The notes: generated by a model not told the origin, from the sequence alone. A stretch of 64,000 nt of DNA from Pseudemcibacter aquimaris (GCF_028869115.1 NZ_CP079800.1:124001-188000), one strand, 5' to 3'; positions 44,232 through 53,807 are shown, counted from the first letter of the stretch. Numbers and translations are program-made.

Positions 44232-44987
44232 CTAAAGCAAAATTGGTGCTTCGCACGCATCGTCGGTGGTGGATTTTAAGACATCCAGCATCAAACGCAC
44301 CATATTTTCTCTTACCTCATCAATGTTGCCCTCGTGAATGGTTATTTTTTCCTCTAACCCGGCCGCAAGGTTAATGGGTAATGCAACCGCACCCATTACC
44401 ATGCCAAGCTCACCAGCAAGGTATACTTCCGGGCATCCGGTCATACCAACCACATCACCGCCCAGCATTTGATACATTTTAATTTCGGCCGGGCTTTCAA
44501 AACGGGGGCCGTTTGTCGCCACATAAGTGGCACCGTCATTGACCCTGATATTATGTTTATCCGCCAGTTCGATTGCCTTGGCGCTCATCACCGGGCAGTA
44601 TGGGATGCTCATTTCCACGTGGCCGATGCCGCGTTCGATGGTGTCAAAGAAACTAAATTCACGGCCATTTGTGAAATCAAGGAAATCCCGCATAATCGCC
44701 AGTTCCATGACCTGATATTTGGCGGTGATGGACCCAACCGCATAGGTGGCCATGATGCGTTTAACGCCTGCGTCTTTTAATGCCTTCATATTGGCGCGGT
44801 AATTAACGCGGTGGGGTGGGGTCGTGTGATCCACACCGTGGCGGGTCATGAAAATGATATCGGCGTAATCCCCTTTACCCTGATAATAGACGGCCTCACC
44901 ATATTCATTGGTAACGCGGACTTCATCAATTTCGATACCGGGCAGGTTATAAATCCCCGTGCCGCCAAGAATTGCTGCTTTTGACAT
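44232..44987 (-). CDS. mtnP: S-methyl-5'-thioadenosine phosphorylase MtnP
   Basis: Phosphorolysis of methylthioadenosine to adenine and methylthioribose-1-phosphate. The 251-aa protein has AILGGTGIYNLPG (phosphate loop), MTRHGVDHTTPPHRVNYRAN (phosphate/ribose site), a C-terminal-domain motif GATYVATNGPRFESPAEI and the MTGCPEVYLAGELGM base-site segment. Start choice: the second ATG, at 44987, lies six bases after AAAGGA and overlaps the mtnA stop as TAATG; the first ATG (44993) directly abuts that ribosome site and is rejected. It is the second gene of the operon. Confidence 0.93.
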   Translation of the reverse strand: MSKAAILGGTGIYNLPGIEIDEVRVTNEYGEAVYYQGKGDYADIIFMTRHGVDHTTPPHRVNYRANMKALKDAGVKRIMATYAVGSITAKYQVMELAIMRDFLDFTNGREFSFFDTIERGIGHVEMSIPYCPVMSAKAIELADKHNIRVNDGATYVATNGPRFESPAEIKMYQMLGGDVVGMTGCPEVYLAGELGMVMGAVALPINLAAGLEEKITIHEGNIDEVRENMVRLMLDVLKSTTDDACEAPILL

Positions 44988-46402
44988 TACCATTCCTTTA
45001 AATTCTTAAGTGTGTAGGGGCTGACGACACCCGATGTGGTTACCACACCGGATACATATTTCGGTGGTGTGATATCGAATGTCGGGTATCTTGCACCCAC
45101 GTCATCACGGGTTGTTGGCTGGCCTAGCGCCTGCCTGATTTCCGCGGGGTCGCGTTCTTCGATCACGATGTCATCGCGGCTTAATTTATTATCGTCACGC
45201 CCCCACGCAAACGCGAAATAGGGGATATCATGGGCATGCGCGGTGATGGCATTTTGGTATGTGCCGATTTTATTGCACACATGGCCATCAACCGTGATTA
45301 GGTCGGCGGCGGTGATATATTTATTGATTTTGCCTTCGCGCATGATGTGTGCGGGCATATTGTCGGTGATCAGGTTGGCTTCAATACCCAGTTCCGTGAT
45401 GCTTGGCGCGGTTAATTTGGCACCCTGTAGGTATGGTCTTGTTTCCGGGACGTAAGCGGTGATATTTTTACCGTCACGTTTTGCGAGCGCCAGTGACAGG
45501 ATAAATCCGGCTTCACCAAAACACATGGTTAGGATCCCGTCACCATCATCAATTACATCGGCCATGGCACGGGCGCGCAGGGCGTAATTATCATAAATGC
45601 TGTTTTTAATGCTTTCGATTTTATTTTTAATCGCGTCATCAACGCTGATACCATTTTCGTCCGCAAGGCGGGCCGCTTCAAGAACCTCATCAAGGCGTAA
45701 TGACATGGCGGTGTTGGTTGGGCGGGTGGCGACCAATTCATCGCGGGCCGTTTTTAACGCATCCGGCCCGTCATTTGCAACAAACCGTAATGCATTAACC
45801 GCCGCCATCCATGGGCCGCTTCCTTGTGTGACCATGTCTTTAATTGCGGTGGCGACATCGGTGACGGATGCGCATTCATGCATGACCTTTTCAAATGGGT
45901 ATTTGCGGCGGTCACCGATCAGCACTTTATCGCCATCGAACCTTGCGATATTGTCCGGGTTAACCACAAACGGCAGCAGATCATAAATGCCCTCTTTAAC
46001 GGCGGGTGATTTTCCGGCGCGTTTTGGCACAACGGCGCCATTTTCCTTAACCCATTTGCTAAAACCGCCATCGATGTGACAGATATTTTCCACGCCGACA
46101 TCTTGTGCGGCCTTGGTCGCAAGTGCACTGCGCCAGCCAGATTTACAGTAAAAAATGAACTTATTACCGGAGGCAAAAATTTTCTTGTAATAAGGGCTTT
46201 GCGGATCGGCCCAAAATTCAATCATGCCGCGCGGCATATGATATGCGCCGGGAATGGTTCCTTCCGCGTCCAGTTCACGCACATCGCGAATATCCACGAA
46301 TGTGTTATTGGGATCATCAAGCATTGATTTTGCCTGATCCACGCTGATGGTTTCAATTTCCGCATTTGCGGCCTGGACCATTTCCTTAGAAGTTTTTGCC
46401 AT
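44987..46402 (-). CDS. mtnA: Rhodanese-MtnA fusion (methylthioribose-1-phosphate isomerase)
   Basis: This is a two-domain protein of 471 aa. Residues about 15-125 are a rhodanese domain with the loop Cys86 in FYCKSGWRSA, able in principle to carry a persulfide. Residues about 140-471 are an aIF2B/MtnA-type sugar-phosphate isomerase. The isomerase part has ATRPTNTAMSLRLDE, the catalytic Cys294 in GILTMCFGEAG, ETRPYLQGAKLTAPSITELGI, and Asp367 in TAADLITVDGHVCNKIGTYQ. Canonical MtnA is about 350 aa without rhodanese, and the usual GAPA motif is altered here to TQGSGPWMAA. It is first in the operon and should turn methylthioribose-1-phosphate into methylthioribulose-1-phosphate. The rhodanese role is unknown. 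Confidence 0.85.
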   Translation of the reverse strand: MAKTSKEMVQAANAEIETISVDQAKSMLDDPNNTFVDIRDVRELDAEGTIPGAYHMPRGMIEFWADPQSPYYKKIFASGNKFIFYCKSGWRSALATKAAQDVGVENICHIDGGFSKWVKENGAVVPKRAGKSPAVKEGIYDLLPFVVNPDNIARFDGDKVLIGDRRKYPFEKVMHECASVTDVATAIKDMVTQGSGPWMAAVNALRFVANDGPDALKTARDELVATRPTNTAMSLRLDEVLEAARLADENGISVDDAIKNKIESIKNSIYDNYALRARAMADVIDDGDGILTMCFGEAGFILSLALAKRDGKNITAYVPETRPYLQGAKLTAPSITELGIEANLITDNMPAHIMREGKINKYITAADLITVDGHVCNKIGTYQNAITAHAHDIPYFAFAWGRDDNKLSRDDIVIEERDPAEIRQALGQPTTRDDVGARYPTFDITPPKYVSGVVTTSGVVSPYTLKNLKEW

Positions 46403-46479: not shown

Positions 46480-47760
46480 ATGCTTAAAAAATGGGGTACG
46501 TCGTTACTTGTTTTATCTTCTATGTCCGTGATGGCTTGTGCGCAAGATAGCACGGTGAACAGCAGTGACACGCAGTTTCTTGTGGTGGGTAAAACCGCCA
46601 ATTACAGACAAGACCGAAATTCTGAAAATCAGGAAATGATCAATTATCATTTCTTCGCTGAAATTTTCGTGAAAGAGGGCGGCGCGGTTACGGATGGAAC
46701 CCTTGCCAATGCGGGCATTGATACCATGAATTTCGCGGATCACCCAAGCGTACTTGAAACGCATGGCGGCCGTTATGAAACGGAAGCCGATCTCGATGCA
46801 TTATATCCAGATGGGGATTATAATTTTACCTATACGGAAACGGGGAATAATACCCTTAATATCCCTGTGAATTTAAGCAAGAAAGCAGACGGAAAAACCC
46901 GTATCCCTGCGGCGCCCGTGATTACATTCAAGCAAGACGGCGGTGTCGTGAATTCATATGATATTGATCCGGAAAAGGACCTTAATATTTCATGGACACC
47001 ATTTACAGAGGGGGGCTCGGACGAAAATGGCTTTGTTGATGATCTTGTGTTCGCGGTGGTTGGGAACTGCAAGGGCGAAAAAATATCCCATTCTGGTGTG
47101 CCGTTTGGCGGCGGGGCGCATTTGACCTACGCTGATACGGATGTGACCATTAGCGCGGATCTTCTTAATCCCGGCGAAGTATATTCAGTTTCCGTTGAAC
47201 ATGCGGTGATGGACACAAATTATGTGGGCAATGTACCAACCATTGCCACTTATGCATCCACGTCTTTCTTGGATTTTAATACGACAGGGGAAAATGTTGG
47301 CGGTTTGCAGTGCACGGAACTGCCGGTTCAGATGGACAAAGGACAAACAGACAGGAGCTTAAAAGGAACCATGGATTTACCAACAATCGATGAACAAATC
47401 ACAATGCTTTATTATTCAGCAGATGATTGGGAAAAGGCCGTTAATTTCTATGGTCGTGATCTGTCATTAGAAGCCACATATGATGATGACTGGGTTAAAA
47501 TTTATAAGCTTAACGCCGGTGCGTTCGTTGGGGTCGTGAAAGACAGCGATGGTGGTTTTCATAAACCCAACCCGGATAGTGCGGTGATGGTCAGCATTGT
47601 TTCAAAAAGTGTTGATGATTGGTATGGTGCGATCCTGAATGCCAAGAACATCAAAATTGAAAAAGAAATCGAAACCCATCAGGGTACACCAATTCGTGCC
47701 TTCCTGATCCGTGACCCGGGTGGTTATACGGTTGAATTTTTCCAGTGGATGAACCGATGA
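46480..47760 (+). CDS. Lipoprotein with C-terminal VOC domain
   Basis: 426 aa. The lipobox SVMAC (Cys20) indicates a periplasmic lipoprotein. Residues about 33-300 form a beta-rich domain nearly colinear with the whole of the next protein; shared words include the NYHF-AE-F-KEGG-VTD segment and the D-L-WTPF/WSPF, GN/DCHG and TTGEN motifs. Residues about 305-426 are a vicinal-oxygen-chelate (glyoxalase-like) domain: MLYYSADDWEKAVNFYGRDL and RDPGGYTVEFFQW. The function is unknown; a sensor or enzyme on an exported small molecule is possible. Its stop overlaps the next start (ATGA). Confidence 0.75.
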   Translation: MLKKWGTSLLVLSSMSVMACAQDSTVNSSDTQFLVVGKTANYRQDRNSENQEMINYHFFAEIFVKEGGAVTDGTLANAGIDTMNFADHPSVLETHGGRYETEADLDALYPDGDYNFTYTETGNNTLNIPVNLSKKADGKTRIPAAPVITFKQDGGVVNSYDIDPEKDLNISWTPFTEGGSDENGFVDDLVFAVVGNCKGEKISHSGVPFGGGAHLTYADTDVTISADLLNPGEVYSVSVEHAVMDTNYVGNVPTIATYASTSFLDFNTTGENVGGLQCTELPVQMDKGQTDRSLKGTMDLPTIDEQITMLYYSADDWEKAVNFYGRDLSLEATYDDDWVKIYKLNAGAFVGVVKDSDGGFHKPNPDSAVMVSIVSKSVDDWYGAILNAKNIKIEKEIETHQGTPIRAFLIRDPGGYTVEFFQWMNR

Positions 47761-48626
47761 AAAGGTTACTTTTAACGACGGCTCTTTTATCATTAAGCCT
47801 GCCCGTAATGGCGCAGGATAGCCATCCTGATATTTCATTTATTCCAATTGGCAAGGCCGTCAACTTGAGGCAGATGAATGACGGTGAAACCAAGGTTTTA
47901 AATTATCATTTTTATGCTGAATTATTCATCAAAGAAGGCGGATCGGTAACCGATGCCAAGTTTACCGGTAACGGTAAAACCGTGGATTTTGATCTTATTG
48001 ATAACATGCTTAAGGTAAAAGGGGATCGTTATAAAACCCGTGAAGAAATGGACGTCAAATATCCTGATGGTGAATATCATTATAATTTTAAAACCAGCGA
48101 CGGTAAAAACCATGATTTGAAATTTATGGTCGGTGGTGAAAATGGGGATAGAACCATTCCTGATTTCATCAAGGTCACTTTTAAACAAGGCGGCATTCCG
48201 GTTTCGCAGGATAATATTAATCCGGATAAAGACCTGACAATAACATGGTCACCCTTTAGCAGTGGGCGTGCTGATCCGAACGGTATTATCGATGATATGA
48301 TTTTTGTATCCGTTACAGATTGTCACGGTAACCGCGTTGATCATAGCGGTACGGCGTTCACGGATCGTGGGGCGATGACATTTCGTGAAACTCAATACCG
48401 CCTGCATGCGGATCAATTAAAAGCGGGGATGATTTATCCGATTTTTGTTGAGCATGTGAAAGCAGACACCCTTGATCAGGACGGTATAAATGGCATGGTT
48501 GCCAATGCAACGACTGTATTTGTGGATGTAAAAACCACCGGTGAAAATATGGGGGATGCTTGCCCGGCATTATTGCCGCAAATGGAACCGGGTCAAACCG
48601 ACAGACCGGGGAAATATCAGGGTTAA
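47757..48626 (+). CDS. Exported paralogue of preceding lipoprotein domain
   Basis: 289 aa with a Sec signal (LLLTTALLSLSLPVMAQ), and no lipobox Cys. The mature part matches the N-terminal domain of the upstream gene along its whole length (NYHFYAELFIKEGGSVTDA, RYKTREEMDVKYPDGEYHY, DLTITWSPFSSG, DVKTTGENMGDACPALLPQM) but stops where the VOC domain would begin. Start: ATG 47757 in an ATGA overlap; a GTG 12 bases earlier is inside the preceding gene. This is a tandem duplication followed by gain or loss of VOC. I do not recognise the family. Confidence 0.75.
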   Translation: MKRLLLTTALLSLSLPVMAQDSHPDISFIPIGKAVNLRQMNDGETKVLNYHFYAELFIKEGGSVTDAKFTGNGKTVDFDLIDNMLKVKGDRYKTREEMDVKYPDGEYHYNFKTSDGKNHDLKFMVGGENGDRTIPDFIKVTFKQGGIPVSQDNINPDKDLTITWSPFSSGRADPNGIIDDMIFVSVTDCHGNRVDHSGTAFTDRGAMTFRETQYRLHADQLKAGMIYPIFVEHVKADTLDQDGINGMVANATTVFVDVKTTGENMGDACPALLPQMEPGQTDRPGKYQG

Positions 48627-48650
48627 GAAATTGAGAGTCGTAAAATAAAA

Positions 48651-48676
48651 AAGACGCTGAAAATAATCAGCGTCTT
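48651..48676. terminator. Bidirectional intrinsic terminator
   Basis: AAGACGCTGA and TCAGCGTCTT form a perfect 10-bp stem with A-rich sequence before and TTTTCTTTT after, between the convergent VOC-paralogue and RidA genes. Confidence 0.85.
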
Positions 48677-48706
48677 TTCTTTTGCAATCAAGAATTAACT
48701 TGAAGT

Positions 48707-49186
48707 TTATTTGGTTCTCGCACCACGTACGTCGATTTCTACGAGCCAGCCATCAACAGCCAGACCGGAAATTTCAACAACGGCACGAACTGGTTTATTT
48801 GGATTTTCTTCTGTACCGAAAAATTCACGGTATGCAGTGTTAAAACCTGCGAAATCCATTTTACCCATTGCCGGATCAGCAACAAGATACACACGAACCA
48901 TTACAAGATCACTCATGCTCCAGCCTGCTTTTTCAACGGCTTCTTTGATCTTTGTGAATGTGCTGCGTGCTTGTTCTTCTGTTGAACCGTAACGTGCTAC
49001 ACCTTCTGCGTCTGGGTTAATGGCGCCTGGGCCTTTACCAGATACATAAAGCTGATCCGCACCAGCAGGTACTTCGATCGTTGAATAGAAATGACGACCT
49101 TCGTCGATACGTGTAATTTCCTGTGCGTTTGCAGTCACGGTTAGCGCAGCAAAGGCAGCAAGTGCAATTTTAAAGAATTTAGTCAT
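48707..49186 (-). CDS. Exported RidA family imine deaminase (second of pair)
   Basis: RidA proteins hydrolyse reactive enamines/imines to ketones plus ammonia. This one (159 aa) has a Sec signal (FFKIALAAFAALTVTANA, residues 4-21), so it is periplasmic, unlike ordinary RidA. The core contains DQLYVSGKGP, TFTKIKEAVEKAGWSMSDLVMVRVYL, and PVRAVVEISGLAVDGWLVEIDV. The last keeps the active-site Arg (position of E. coli Arg105). The ribosome site AAGGAAG lies nine bases before the ATG. It is co-transcribed with the RidA gene 24 bases upstream and lies downstream of the cytochrome and amine oxidase genes. Confidence 0.88.
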   Translation of the reverse strand: MTKFFKIALAAFAALTVTANAQEITRIDEGRHFYSTIEVPAGADQLYVSGKGPGAINPDAEGVARYGSTEEQARSTFTKIKEAVEKAGWSMSDLVMVRVYLVADPAMGKMDFAGFNTAYREFFGTEENPNKPVRAVVEISGLAVDGWLVEIDVRGARTK

Positions 49187-49210
49187 AATGATTTCTTCCT
49201 TCGTATCTTA

Positions 49211-49729
49211 TTATTTTGGCATGCGGATGGCGCGTGCTTCAACTTCAACCAACCAACCTGGTACAACAAGTGAATGAATACCTACGAATGTACGTGATGG
49301 AAGGTTTGTGTTACCGCTTGTTGAATTTTCACCGAAATATTCACGGTATGCTTTGTTGAATGCTGCTGAATCAACTTTGCCGTCTTCACCCGGTACACCA
49401 TAAATACGAAGCATAACAACATCGCTTAGTGACCAACCAGCGTCTTCAAGCTGAGTTTTGAAAGATTCGAAAATTGCTTTACCTTGTTCATACATATCGC
49501 CCGGCTTACATTCGTCGCCTTTTGCTTGGCGCTCTTCGCGTGTCATGCAACCTTCGCCCCACGCGTGGTTACCTTTACCACTCATGTAATATGTTTCTGC
49601 ACCAGCAGGGATTGCGATACCTGGATCTAGGAAACCTTTACTTGTTCTTTCGATTTCTTGTGCATTTGCAGAAAAAGCAGTTAGACCACCGATAACCAGT
49701 GCCGCTGCGATTTTAGTTAGTTTAGACAT
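49211..49729 (-). CDS. Exported RidA family imine deaminase (first of pair)
   Basis: 172 aa, with a Sec signal (KIAAALVIGGLTAFSANA) and a RidA core: TYYMSGKGNHAWG, FESFKTQLEDAGWSLSDVVMLRIYG, and LPSRTFVGIHSLVVPGWLVEVEA, which keeps the active-site Arg. Compared with its neighbour it carries an insert (GCMTREERQAKGDECKPGD) with two Cys that could form a disulfide in the periplasm. The two proteins are diverged duplicates, so they may form a mixed trimer or handle different imines. Confidence 0.88.
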   Translation of the reverse strand: MSKLTKIAAALVIGGLTAFSANAQEIERTSKGFLDPGIAIPAGAETYYMSGKGNHAWGEGCMTREERQAKGDECKPGDMYEQGKAIFESFKTQLEDAGWSLSDVVMLRIYGVPGEDGKVDSAAFNKAYREYFGENSTSGNTNLPSRTFVGIHSLVVPGWLVEVEARAIRMPK

Positions 49730-49799
49730 TGTTTTCTCCCTAGGAATTTATTTTTCAGCATCTTCATGCAAGGACGGAAGATAGCTTATAGGATTAAAA

Positions 49800-49840
49800 A
49801 AAAATCGCAATGAAATCTGTTTGAAATCATTGCGATTTTT
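49800..49840 (-). terminator. Intrinsic terminator after cytochrome c gene
   Basis: AAAAATCGCAATGA and its reverse complement form a 14-bp stem with a 13-base loop. On the minus strand it is followed by an unbroken T-run. It ends the amine oxidase-cytochrome transcript, so the RidA pair needs its own promoter or read-through. Confidence 0.85.
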
Positions 49841-49849
49841 CATGAATTT

Positions 49850-50251
49850 TTAGTTACCAGGACCGAAGCCGTCGTCTTCTTCCGCAATTTCTTCATAGGC
49901 GACGTCCATTTCTTCTTGTGTAATCTCACCGCCTGCATTGCCCCAACTGTTTCGAATGTAGTTAACGATCGTTGTTAGTTCGTCAACCTCAAGATCGCTG
50001 ATGAAGGTTGGCATTCCTGCACGGCCTTCAAGAAGCAGATAAATAAGTTCTTCTTTATCGCCAAGAACAAACTCATTTCCTTTTAGCGCAGGATAGATAT
50101 CTTCATATCCTTCACCACCTGGTTGATGGCATGCTTCACAAAAATCAGTATAGATTTGTGCGCCTTCTGCAGAATGATCTTGCGCATTTGCGTTTGAAAT
50201 AATTGTCGTTGCGCCCATTAAAGCAACTAGTAACTTAAAGTAATTTTTCAT
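49850..50251 (-). CDS. Periplasmic cytochrome c
   Basis: 133 aa with a Sec signal (residues 1-23, ending NANA) and one haem site, FCEACHQ (Cys38, Cys41, His42). The likely axial Met is Met80 in GRAGMPTF. An acidic C-terminal tail (EEMDVAYEEIAEEDDGFGPG) follows. The ATG at 50251 is preferred to the GTG at 50260, which overlaps the weak GGTGA ribosome site. It lies 105 bases downstream of the flavin amine oxidase gene and is the obvious candidate electron acceptor, as shown for NicA2 and its cytochrome in Pseudomonas. Confidence 0.9.
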   Translation of the reverse strand: MKNYFKLLVALMGATTIISNANAQDHSAEGAQIYTDFCEACHQPGGEGYEDIYPALKGNEFVLGDKEELIYLLLEGRAGMPTFISDLEVDELTTIVNYIRNSWGNAGGEITQEEMDVAYEEIAEEDDGFGPGN

Positions 50252-50289
50252 ATTCACCACACTATATATTATATATATTTATTATTAAT

Positions 50290-50325
50290 CGTTACATTAT
50301 ATCATTATTTGATATTAATGTGACG
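50290..50325. promoter_or_regulatory. Large inverted repeat upstream of cytochrome c gene
   Basis: CGTTACATTATATCA (50290-50304) and TGATATTAATGTGACG (50310-50325) are nearly perfect reverse complements, 39 bases before the cytochrome start. The word GTTACATTAT also occurs in the palindrome upstream of the amine oxidase (52061-52070). It could be an operator common to both genes; being AT-rich and without a T-run, it is less likely to be a terminator. Confidence 0.45.
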
Positions 50326-50355
50326 ACATTATGTCCTCAAAATCAAGATATCAAA

Positions 50356-51972
50356 TTATCCTTGTTGTGCAACACGTTTGTCGATAACTTCCATTGTAGA
50401 CCACGCACCTTCAATCGCACCAGCCATCCAGCCACCAAGAGCAGGGGAGGCGATGTTACCTGAAACAAAGATACGATTATCACCTTTATGCACAATTGGG
50501 AATGCACGTGTGCGTCCACGGCGTGTCCAGTTTTCCCAACCTGCCAGTGCATATTTCATCTTGTGCCATGCCACTGACATCGCTTCGCCAGTGAAATGTT
50601 TTCTATATTTGCCAGGGTGAACTTTTTCACCAACTGATAATGCAAATTCAATCCGTTCTGACATGGAAAGATTACTGATCGGAACAGATTGACCGCCAAT
50701 TGGGTAATAACCAAGAATAACACCAGTATCACCATGTGCCTGACCAAATAGGTTGCCTGATGGATAAGCCAAAATGCGGTGACCAGGAATATCAGTGCTT
50801 GTTACACCGCCATAAATCATTTCTTCCTGTTCCCAGAAACGATGATCCATTTCAACACCGATTTTACAAGCCGGATTACCGTTTGTGGCCTTCATCGCGT
50901 TCGCAAAATCTTCGCTTAAGTTAATATTCATTTTCTGCATCACACCAAGTGGAGCAGTTGAAATCACATAATCAGCTTCTTCTGTTCGAACACGGCCATT
51001 TTGAGTATTTTTATAAGTAACCTTAACACCGTTATCGTCTTGAACCACATCTGTGACTTCAGAATTATAACGAATTTGGTTTTTCTTAAGTGCATTTTTC
51101 AAACCTTGCGCGATCTGATCCATACCGCCAACGGCTTGGAACATAACCGGTGGATGATCGGCCGTTTCATTGCGTGCTGCAGGCGTAATTGAAAGCGCAT
51201 CCGCAAGGGCAAATGGCTCTGATAGTTCACCAAAGTTTGTTCCAGCACCTGGATAAACACTGTGGCCACGGGCGCGGTTTGCGCGGTAGTTAAGTTCGCG
51301 TGAATTGATTAGTCCGGAACGACGCAGGTTTTCTAGTAATTTTTCTTTATCTTCTTGTGAAATCAGCTGATCAAGACCACCTTGGTCAGCAACCTTTGCA
51401 AGGAGTTCAGTTGAATAACCTTTGAAATCTATATCTGCAAGTTCCTGACGGACAGGCTGACCTTTAAAGGCACCTTCTTTATTTTCATAATAGTAATAAG
51501 ATTTACCTGATTTATTTACGAGCACTTCAAGGGGAACACCAAGCGTGCGGCAATAATAAATGGTTGATTTATGTTCGGCAGGGATACGCCATGGACCATA
51601 GTTCACATAGTTCCCATCTTGGAAATTACAAACTTGTTTTTCGCCGCCGATTTCTTCGATCACATGGCCTTTACGGGCGGATACACAACGGCCACCAGCA
51701 TAATCGAGTGCTTCGATAATTTTCGTTTTGTAGCCCTTTTTTGACATTTCATAGGCGAGAACCATACCGGCAAGTCCGGCACCAAGAATAATAACCTTTT
51801 TACCATTACCATCTGTGGACATTTCTGGCGGGCGATCCACTTCGGATGCAAAACCCATGTCCCAGCCTTGTAATGCAGTCATTACAGCTGCTGTGCCACC
51901 GATCATGCCAACAGATTGCAAGAAAGAGCGTTTCGTAATAGCGGTAGGTTGTGAATTCTCAGTCTTTGTCAT
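50356..51972 (-). CDS. Tat-exported flavin monoamine oxidase/dehydrogenase
   Basis: 538 aa. FAD-binding VIILGAGLAGMVLAYEMSKKG (residues 60-80) and YAGGRC (91-96) are the amine-oxidase Rossmann motifs. The C-terminal FAD segment is FVSGNIASPALGGWMAGAIEGAWST. The N-terminus, TKRSFLQSVGMIGGTAAVMTAL, is Tat-like but has Lys-Arg in place of Arg-Arg, a tolerated variant. Such exported flavin amine oxidases include NicA2, which reduces a cytochrome c and not oxygen. The neighbouring genes (cytochrome c and two exported RidA) suggest amine to imine, electrons to cytochrome, and imine to carbonyl, all in the periplasm. The substrate is unknown. Confidence 0.9.
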   Translation of the reverse strand: MTKTENSQPTAITKRSFLQSVGMIGGTAAVMTALQGWDMGFASEVDRPPEMSTDGNGKKVIILGAGLAGMVLAYEMSKKGYKTKIIEALDYAGGRCVSARKGHVIEEIGGEKQVCNFQDGNYVNYGPWRIPAEHKSTIYYCRTLGVPLEVLVNKSGKSYYYYENKEGAFKGQPVRQELADIDFKGYSTELLAKVADQGGLDQLISQEDKEKLLENLRRSGLINSRELNYRANRARGHSVYPGAGTNFGELSEPFALADALSITPAARNETADHPPVMFQAVGGMDQIAQGLKNALKKNQIRYNSEVTDVVQDDNGVKVTYKNTQNGRVRTEEADYVISTAPLGVMQKMNINLSEDFANAMKATNGNPACKIGVEMDHRFWEQEEMIYGGVTSTDIPGHRILAYPSGNLFGQAHGDTGVILGYYPIGGQSVPISNLSMSERIEFALSVGEKVHPGKYRKHFTGEAMSVAWHKMKYALAGWENWTRRGRTRAFPIVHKGDNRIFVSGNIASPALGGWMAGAIEGAWSTMEVIDKRVAQQG

Positions 51973-52581: not shown

Positions 52582-53562
52582 TTAGCCACCAGTTGATGAC
52601 AGGTTTGTCATAATACCAGTGTTGCCGTCCTGTAGAAAATGTGATGATGCCTTGTAATCAAGTTGCTTTGAAATTGCGGCTTTTAGGTCATCTTTCTGAT
52701 CATCGCTTTGTAACATATGGCGCAAAGGAATACCGACATTACCAAACAGACAAAGTCGTAGGTCGCCTGTTGAGGTAATCCTTAGACGGTTACATCCAGT
52801 GCAGAAATCTTTTGAATAAGGTGCGATTAAACCAATAGATCCTTTATAATCAGGATGGGTGAAATTGACGGCTGGGCCCGCACCAATTTGTCTTATGTTT
52901 TCAACCCAACCACGATCAATAAGTTGGTCTTTAACATAATCGGCACTTTGATGATATTTATTGAAATAAGTCAGGTTGTCACCTGTTTGCATAAGTTCAA
53001 TATATCTGACGCTCACCGGCGTATCTTTCACATATTCAAGATAAGCATCTAGTTCATCATCATTGACGCCTTTTAAAAGAACGACATTGATCTTCACATC
53101 TTCGAAGCCGACCTCTAATGCTTTTTCGATGCCTTCGCGGACCTCTTGCATGCGGTCATGGCCAGTGATGTCATGAAATTTTTTCGCATTCATGCTGTCG
53201 ATGCTGATGTTAATAGCATTTAAGCCAGCATCGCGCCATTCCGCCGCTTTTTCACGTAATTTATAACCGTTTGTGGTAAATGCCAATTTGGTGATTTCTG
53301 ACTTTTCACCGATCATTTTGGCAATTTCGGTAAAATCCTTTCGGATTGTCGGCTCACCACCTGTGATTCTTATCTTCCAGACACCTAACTCAACGAAAGC
53401 ATTCACAAGGCGCATAATCTCATCCTGGCGCAGGAATGATTTTTCATGATCTTTTTGATAGCCGTTGGGTAAGCAGTAACTGCAACTGAAATTGCAAACT
53501 TCGGTTATAGACAGCCGAAGATACGGAAAGGTTCTGTTATAATTGTCAACAAGCATGTTCAT
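52582..53562 (-). CDS. moaA: GTP 3',8-cyclase MoaA
   Basis: This radical-SAM enzyme makes the first step of molybdenum cofactor synthesis from GTP with MoaC. The 326-aa product has the SAM-cluster motif EVCNFSCSYC (Cys23, 27, 30), WKIRITGGEPTIRKDF, and the C-terminal cluster CTGCNRLRITSTGDLRLCLFG, but lacks the standard terminal GG of MoaA (it ends SSTGG, so a GG is in fact present). Start: ATG 53562 with GGA six bases upstream. The longer frame to 53631 would run through the riboswitch and is rejected. It heads a two-gene unit with the DUF7009-like gene. MsrP at 1.8 kb is a Moco user. Confidence 0.94.
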   Translation of the reverse strand: MNMLVDNYNRTFPYLRLSITEVCNFSCSYCLPNGYQKDHEKSFLRQDEIMRLVNAFVELGVWKIRITGGEPTIRKDFTEIAKMIGEKSEITKLAFTTNGYKLREKAAEWRDAGLNAINISIDSMNAKKFHDITGHDRMQEVREGIEKALEVGFEDVKINVVLLKGVNDDELDAYLEYVKDTPVSVRYIELMQTGDNLTYFNKYHQSADYVKDQLIDRGWVENIRQIGAGPAVNFTHPDYKGSIGLIAPYSKDFCTGCNRLRITSTGDLRLCLFGNVGIPLRHMLQSDDQKDDLKAAISKQLDYKASSHFLQDGNTGIMTNLSSTGG

Positions 53563-53670
53563 CTCTTTTCCAAGCACGGGAGGCCGGGACGTTTCCATCC
53601 AAACCCGGTGGGCGAACCCACGGCCTGACAACCATATCGTTATTGAGTTAGGCGTTCAGGCTTCAGAGTA
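53563..53670 (-). ncRNA. Moco (molybdenum cofactor) riboswitch
   Basis: Reading the minus strand into moaA, the leader begins ACTCTGAAGCCT and ends CGGCCTCCCGTGCTTGGAAA just before the start codon. This closely matches the E. coli moaA leader (ACTCTAGCCTCT at its start, GCCTCCCGTATCTGGAAA at its end). Between are a hairpin GTGGG-TTCG-CCCAC (53602-53615) and a stem CGGG...CCCG around a GTTTGGATGGAAAC loop. The ribosome site GGAAAAGAG lies in the 3' end of the motif, so control of translation by Moco binding is expected. Confidence 0.8.
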
Positions 53671-53807
53671 AATAACTTATGACAGATTATTAAAATTTGC
53701 CGATAAGTCCAGTCACAAATATAAAAATCTTTGTGAATTTACAAATTAAGGATAATTGAAAATAAAGAGGTAAAATTGATTTAAGACAAGTTTTGACGCA
53801 AAAACCG

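Follow-up and report, generated by a model that had tools for sequence, protein, structure and literature searches.

A conserved gene cluster of Pseudemcibacter aquimaris encodes a Tat-type L-amino acid oxidase/dehydrogenase, a cytochrome c and two predicted exported Rid3-type proteins

Results

Gene content of the locus

The window analysed here is a stretch of 64,000 nucleotides of Pseudemcibacter aquimaris DNA (GCF_028869115.1, NZ_CP079800.1:124001-188000), from a genome consisting of a single contig of 3.37 Mb. Four ORFs lie at nt 48707-51972, all on the minus strand (Table 1), as an earlier note on this DNA had proposed in describing four genes in one direction, and all were assigned by Pfam: the flavoenzyme to Amino_oxidase (1e-44), the cytochrome to Cytochrome_CBB3/Cytochrom_C (5e-11) and the two Rid proteins to Ribonuc_L-PSP (5e-17 and 1e-11). 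The named relatives used for comparison were Emcibacteraceae/Kordiimonadaceae MAGs.

Table 1. Features of the cluster, with positions in the window
Feature	Position (nt)	Strand	Remarks
L-amino acid oxidase/dehydrogenase (LAAO), flavin, Tat-type, 538 aa	50356-51972	-	Tat motif of KR variant (TKRSFLQ); Pfam, homology, alignment
LAAO active-site positions (R. opacus LAAO)	50356-51972	-	Occupied by R129, Y423, W479, W515
Class I cytochrome c, Sec-exported, 136 aa	49850-50260	-	Single-haem (CxxCH); putative dedicated electron acceptor
Cytochrome c, predicted Sec signal peptide, residues 1-26	50183-50260	-	Cleavage placed by eye, between NANA and Q; orthologues pass our rule
Hairpin with T-run, cytochrome/Rid A intergenic	49799-49841	-	Possible terminator/attenuator
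Rid A, exported Rid3-type, 172 aa	49211-49729	-	Tandem paralogue, diverged; R146 as catalytic Arg; two conserved Cys in a loop insert
Rid A, predicted Sec signal peptide, residues 1-23	49661-49729	-	Own rule
Rid B, exported Rid3-type, 159 aa	48707-49186	-	Catalytic Arg R134; orthologue in all genus clusters examined
Rid B, predicted Sec signal peptide, residues 1-21	49124-49186	-	Own rule
Intrinsic terminator 3' of Rid B	48647-48680	-	

The flavoenzyme

The best solved relative of the oxidase is the LAAO of Rhodococcus opacus (2jae; E 3e-77, full-length match), followed by snake-type LAAOs. In the alignment to 2jae, the four active-site residues of the window protein stand, in the order of Table 1, opposite chain positions 83, 370, 425 and 466, which we equate with R84, Y371, W426 and W467 in the published numbering; in LAAOs, the residues at the positions of R129 and Y423 hold the carboxylate of the amino acid. 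Across an alignment of 15 sequences, R129, W482 and W515 did not vary and Y423 hardly varied. Both the full-length homology and the conserved substrate-site residues place the protein with the Rhodococcus-type LAAOs, and from family and residues we infer an L-amino acid as substrate. The NicA2-type identity suggested by the earlier note was rejected: NicA2 is absent among the 60 PDB matches listed for the oxidase, and on these matches the protein is judged to fall outside the NicA2-related clades.

That note had also called the enzyme a Tat-type flavin oxidase. This stands as regards the presence of a Tat-like motif and of TatC, which is encoded in the genome, with the correction that the motif is a non-canonical KR form and not RR. 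The KR motif was found in all ten genus clusters checked (TKRTFLQ in one orthologue), while distant LAAO homologues mostly have RR. Separately, the protein encoded at L064:3487-5730 begins with a TRRTFL motif, the genus LAAOs seen, including that of the same genome, being of the KR type.

Seven further LAAO paralogues, eight copies in total in 3.4 Mb, are encoded in the genome (G000:C1, positions 246908, 1491231, 1493028, 1790380, 1792784, 1916171 and 2206362). No cytochrome or Rid gene was found nearby at the four of these loci that were inspected, so that of the loci examined the window copy alone has both; this LAAO type is thus evidently able to work without either.

The Rid proteins

The N-terminus of both Rid proteins has lysine in the n-region, then a hydrophobic core and a cleavage site of the form A-x-A (MTKFFKIALAAFAALTVTANA and MSKLTKIAAALVIGGLTAFSANA, each followed by Q), and these signal features are kept among orthologues. 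Export was called by a rule of our own (n-region charge, hydrophobic core, A-x-A site); the Sec signals previously proposed for both proteins were not rejected by this rule, which flagged 0 of 8 cytosolic-type Rid controls. The active-site arginine was likewise found retained in both, as had been claimed, together with the other Rid invariants.

The closest solved structures to both proteins are the Rid3 proteins PFL_1385 and PSPTO_3006 (PDB 9bkc and 9bka), to which they are closest by sequence and fold and with which they have the retained Arg in common; a model of Rid A (pLDDT 79) indeed has the Rid fold, with 9bkc as best match. The original label "RidA-family" is hence right in that these are Rid proteins with a Ribonuc_L-PSP domain, but the best match is specifically to the Rid3 subfamily, and proximity to Rid3 members and retention of the catalytic Arg agree in this assignment. 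PFL_1385 and PSPTO_3006 were assigned to Rid3 and hydrolyse LAAO-made imines in vitro (PMC5619798), and clustering of Rid3 genes with those for FAD amine oxidases has been described (PMC4433059). Export is unmentioned in these two papers (neither "signal" nor "periplasm" was found in the former, neither "signal peptide" nor "periplasm" in the latter), whereas the window Rids carry predicted signals. PFL_1385 (9bkc chain) itself begins with a signal-like segment, which PMC5619798 does not discuss.

Conservation across genomes

In a phylum sample of 399 proteobacterial genomes, a cluster-type Rid was found in 25 and the LAAO in 28; the LAAO was present in all 25 Rid genomes, always at a Rid-LAAO distance <=3.7 kb, and in 21/21 when the four genomes that were sources of the profiles were left out (Fisher 5e-32), an association beyond what chance would give. 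A cytochrome c gene was adjacent in 18 of the 25 clusters, as well as in all ten genus clusters checked, and the Rid carried a signal peptide or lipobox in 23/25, several lineages having a predicted lipoprotein Rid, an alternative way to the cell envelope. The two signal-less Rids (G606 and G657) belong to one lineage, in which the cytochrome is absent and the Tat core of the LAAO contains charged residues; export of Rid and of LAAO has apparently been lost together. In a class sample of 289 genomes, ten had a strong Rid match and nine of these the LAAO, which is weaker evidence because several of these genomes supplied profile sequences.

Exported Rids beside an LAAO were also found among distantly related Alphaproteobacteria and in genomes of other classes. 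The genome search for exported Rid, oxidase and cytochrome c suggested in the earlier note thus gave a positive outcome, and conservation beyond close relatives, on which its reading had been made to depend, extends across Proteobacteria. The idea of one exported functional unit is supported, as are export of the Rids (by our rule), their retained Arg and this wide conservation. From these sequence comparisons, Rid3 would generally be exported together with its LAAO, a generality that is apparently unreported.

Tandem duplication of the Rid gene

On a tree for which the program warns of long branches, Rid A forms a monophyletic genus clade with a stem of 1.88 changes per site, joining Rid B with support 99/96. 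Its orthologues are 83-91% identical to the window Rid A, those of Rid B about 68-80% identical to the window Rid B, and the two Cys of the Rid A loop insert are conserved in the orthologues shown. Of the 12 genus genomes that hold a cluster Rid, that of the window among them, 7 have Rid A, and some members of the genus have Rid B alone. The long stem, the high identity among orthologues and the conserved Cys together suggest a duplication followed by rapid change and then by strong constraint. The doubling and divergence of the Rid, seen here in this genus, have apparently not been reported before.

Genomic neighbourhood and transcription

The context of the cluster is fixed in the genus: it is flanked at one end by dnaX-ybaB-recR-moaA-DUF7009 and at the other by a VOC-domain gene of convergent orientation and mtnA-mtnP (gene names assigned by family). 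The terminator 3' of Rid B is conserved in all ten clusters folded. The hairpin of the cytochrome/Rid A intergenic region carries a T-run only in the window and L168, a relative; elsewhere the T-run is missing or the hairpin absent. Since this terminator-like structure separates the cytochrome from the Rid genes, a plain single-operon reading is weakened and remains uncertain; co-transcription of the cluster is likely but may be attenuated. Promoter and terminator scans performed no better than on shuffled sequences.

The convergent VOC-domain protein (nt 46480-47760) was not taken to belong to the module: the gene is syntenic in the genus but lies on the other strand and belongs to a multi-copy family, and the family is missing in three genomes (G034, G037 and G044) that have an exported Rid next to or near the LAAO. 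The ORFs at nt 46480-47760 and 47745-48626 (plus strand) encode two exported proteins with a common beta-rich domain, the first with a C-terminal VOC domain; the domain family is multi-copy in the genus and also occurs in G035. No Pfam match was found for the shared domain, nor did a fold search with it give a reliable match (TM to query at most 0.28).

A link to the flanking methionine-salvage genes would rest on synteny in the genus only. Among these, the gene at nt 44987-46402 (minus strand) encodes an MtnA-type isomerase with a fused N-terminal rhodanese domain, is conserved in the genus, and adjoins genes for an mtnP-like phosphorylase and a class II aldolase. At nt 53545-53680 (minus strand), a molybdenum/tungsten cofactor riboswitch lies at the start of a moaA-like gene.

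Discussion

Relation to known systems

The earlier note had named no described system that places RidA in this position; two related systems precede the present one. A lao-cccA-ridA cluster was described in 2016 in Gluconacetobacter diazotrophicus PAL5 (PMC5053998), and in Chlamydomonas the LAAO LAO1/LAO2 and a RidA-type protein, RIDA, were placed in the periplasm (PMC10805672).

The same three genes of G. diazotrophicus, adjacent, in the same order and on one strand, are found in the window. The published qPCR primers translate to YPSHGYF/QVIHPNY (lao), AIYQHV/NYVRSH (cccA) and ASTIYL/KLGKID (ridA), which match the window proteins at closely similar residues (404 vs 403, 41 vs 35 and 48 vs 43 in G. 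diazotrophicus and window, respectively), numbers derived from primer positions; the correspondence to G. diazotrophicus sequences is one of primer translations and positions only. The ridA position points to a comparably long N-terminus on the G. diazotrophicus Rid. According to the part of PMC5053998 available, the LAAO is predicted to be Tat-exported, a signal peptide being mentioned there for the LAAO and not for RidA; the tested role of the cluster is IAA synthesis from tryptophan, lao mutants having lost IAA production, and ccm mutants are cited as producing 5% of the wild-type IAA. That cluster has one Rid, whereas the window has two.

The Chlamydomonas system likewise has an LAAO and a RidA-type protein cooperating outside the cytoplasm, but it is eukaryotic, makes H2O2 and has a cluster without cytochrome c. 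Among NicA2-related enzymes, a Tat signal with an adjacent cytochrome c was shown in 2025 to mark cytochrome-using dehydrogenases, Tat enzymes without an adjacent cytochrome reacting fast with O2 (PMC12224317). The window enzyme has in common with these NicA2/Pnao-type dehydrogenases a Tat flavin amine oxidoreductase (here with the KR-variant motif) beside a Sec-exported cytochrome c, but is LAAO-type and of a different sequence group; neither Rid nor L-amino acids are mentioned in PMC12224317.

Proposed mechanism and alternatives

The cluster is real and conserved, and probably deaminates amino acids outside the inner membrane with electrons passing to a dedicated cytochrome. The reading that we favour, and regard as rather probable, is that of a periplasmic L-amino-acid-oxidising module made of the LAAO, a cytochrome c acceptor, exported Rids for imine hydrolysis and a specialised Rid A. 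The Tat-exported flavoenzyme would oxidise an L-amino acid to the imino acid; the reduced flavin would then be reoxidised by the Sec-exported cytochrome c of the neighbouring gene, which would pass the electrons on to a terminal oxidase, with O2 not being the main acceptor; and the exported Rid3-type proteins would convert the reactive imino acid by hydrolysis into ammonium and a 2-oxo acid, so preventing damage. Rid B would be the ancestral Rid3 and Rid A a lineage-specific duplicate with a specialised role, speculatively another imine range or a structural part in a mixed Rid trimer or oxidase complex. The acceptor role of the cytochrome is suggested by gene context and precedent, and imine hydrolysis by the Rid3 homologues, so that the path from amino acid to imine and keto acid with electrons going to cytochrome c is plausible by analogy; in part it was already proposed for G. 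diazotrophicus (PMC5053998). Some observations speak against such a module: seven of the 25 Rid-linked LAAOs have no adjacent cytochrome c, the Tat motif is non-canonical, the genome has seven LAAO paralogues, the inspected four without cytochrome or Rid, and a terminator-like hairpin sets the Rid genes apart from the cytochrome gene.

O2 is used by characterised LAAOs, among them the R. opacus enzyme, which is the closest with a solved structure. The enzyme of the window could accordingly be a true oxidase that makes H2O2 in the periplasm; in that case the Rids would still hydrolyse the imine, and the cytochrome c would scavenge peroxide or carry electrons independently. The clusters lacking the cytochrome would fit this, as would the fast reaction with O2 of Tat enzymes without such a neighbour (PMC12224317); we nevertheless consider it unlikely for a cluster type in which the cytochrome gene is so often directly adjacent, a signpost that predicted dehydrogenases in the 2025 study, and given that ccm mutants of G. 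diazotrophicus lose the output of the pathway (PMC5053998). These genetic signposts and precedents favour cytochrome c over O2 as acceptor.

It is quite unlikely that the Rids, and the diverged Rid A in particular, serve as non-catalytic structural subunits of an oxidase complex, as in the periplasmic LAAO complex of Chlamydomonas, whose RidA-type subunit is called non-catalytic in work cited in PMC5053998. The very long stem of Rid A with its later tight conservation, and the Cys-containing insert, would suit a structural part; yet both proteins keep the Arg for imine hydrolysis and the other Rid invariants, the Rid3 proteins assayed are active imine deaminases (PMC5619798), and most clusters have a single Rid. 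Finally, that the substrate is, as in NicA2-type systems, an amine or other compound and not a free L-amino acid would be compatible with the breadth of the Pfam family, but is improbable for a full-length LAAO match that keeps the carboxylate-binding residues.

Implications

Rid proteins are discussed as protecting PLP enzymes in the cytosol from damage by imines. Extending the periplasmic module beyond the window, we tentatively suggest, as a quite possible generalisation, that Rid3 is as a rule the exported partner of Tat enzymes which act as L-amino acid dehydrogenases, not as oxidases, and supply the respiratory chain with electrons via a dedicated cytochrome c, an arrangement widespread in Proteobacteria and largely unrecognised, with a second, possibly disulphide-bearing Rid of distinct role in this lineage. 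If this is true, a Rid subfamily exported in step with an imine-making enzyme would show the purpose of Rid3, and imine control would sit in a compartment apart from PLP metabolism. Within the flavin amine oxidoreductases, the LAAO branch would then also include cytochrome-using dehydrogenases, and some proteobacterial enzymes annotated as "L-amino acid oxidase" would make little H2O2.
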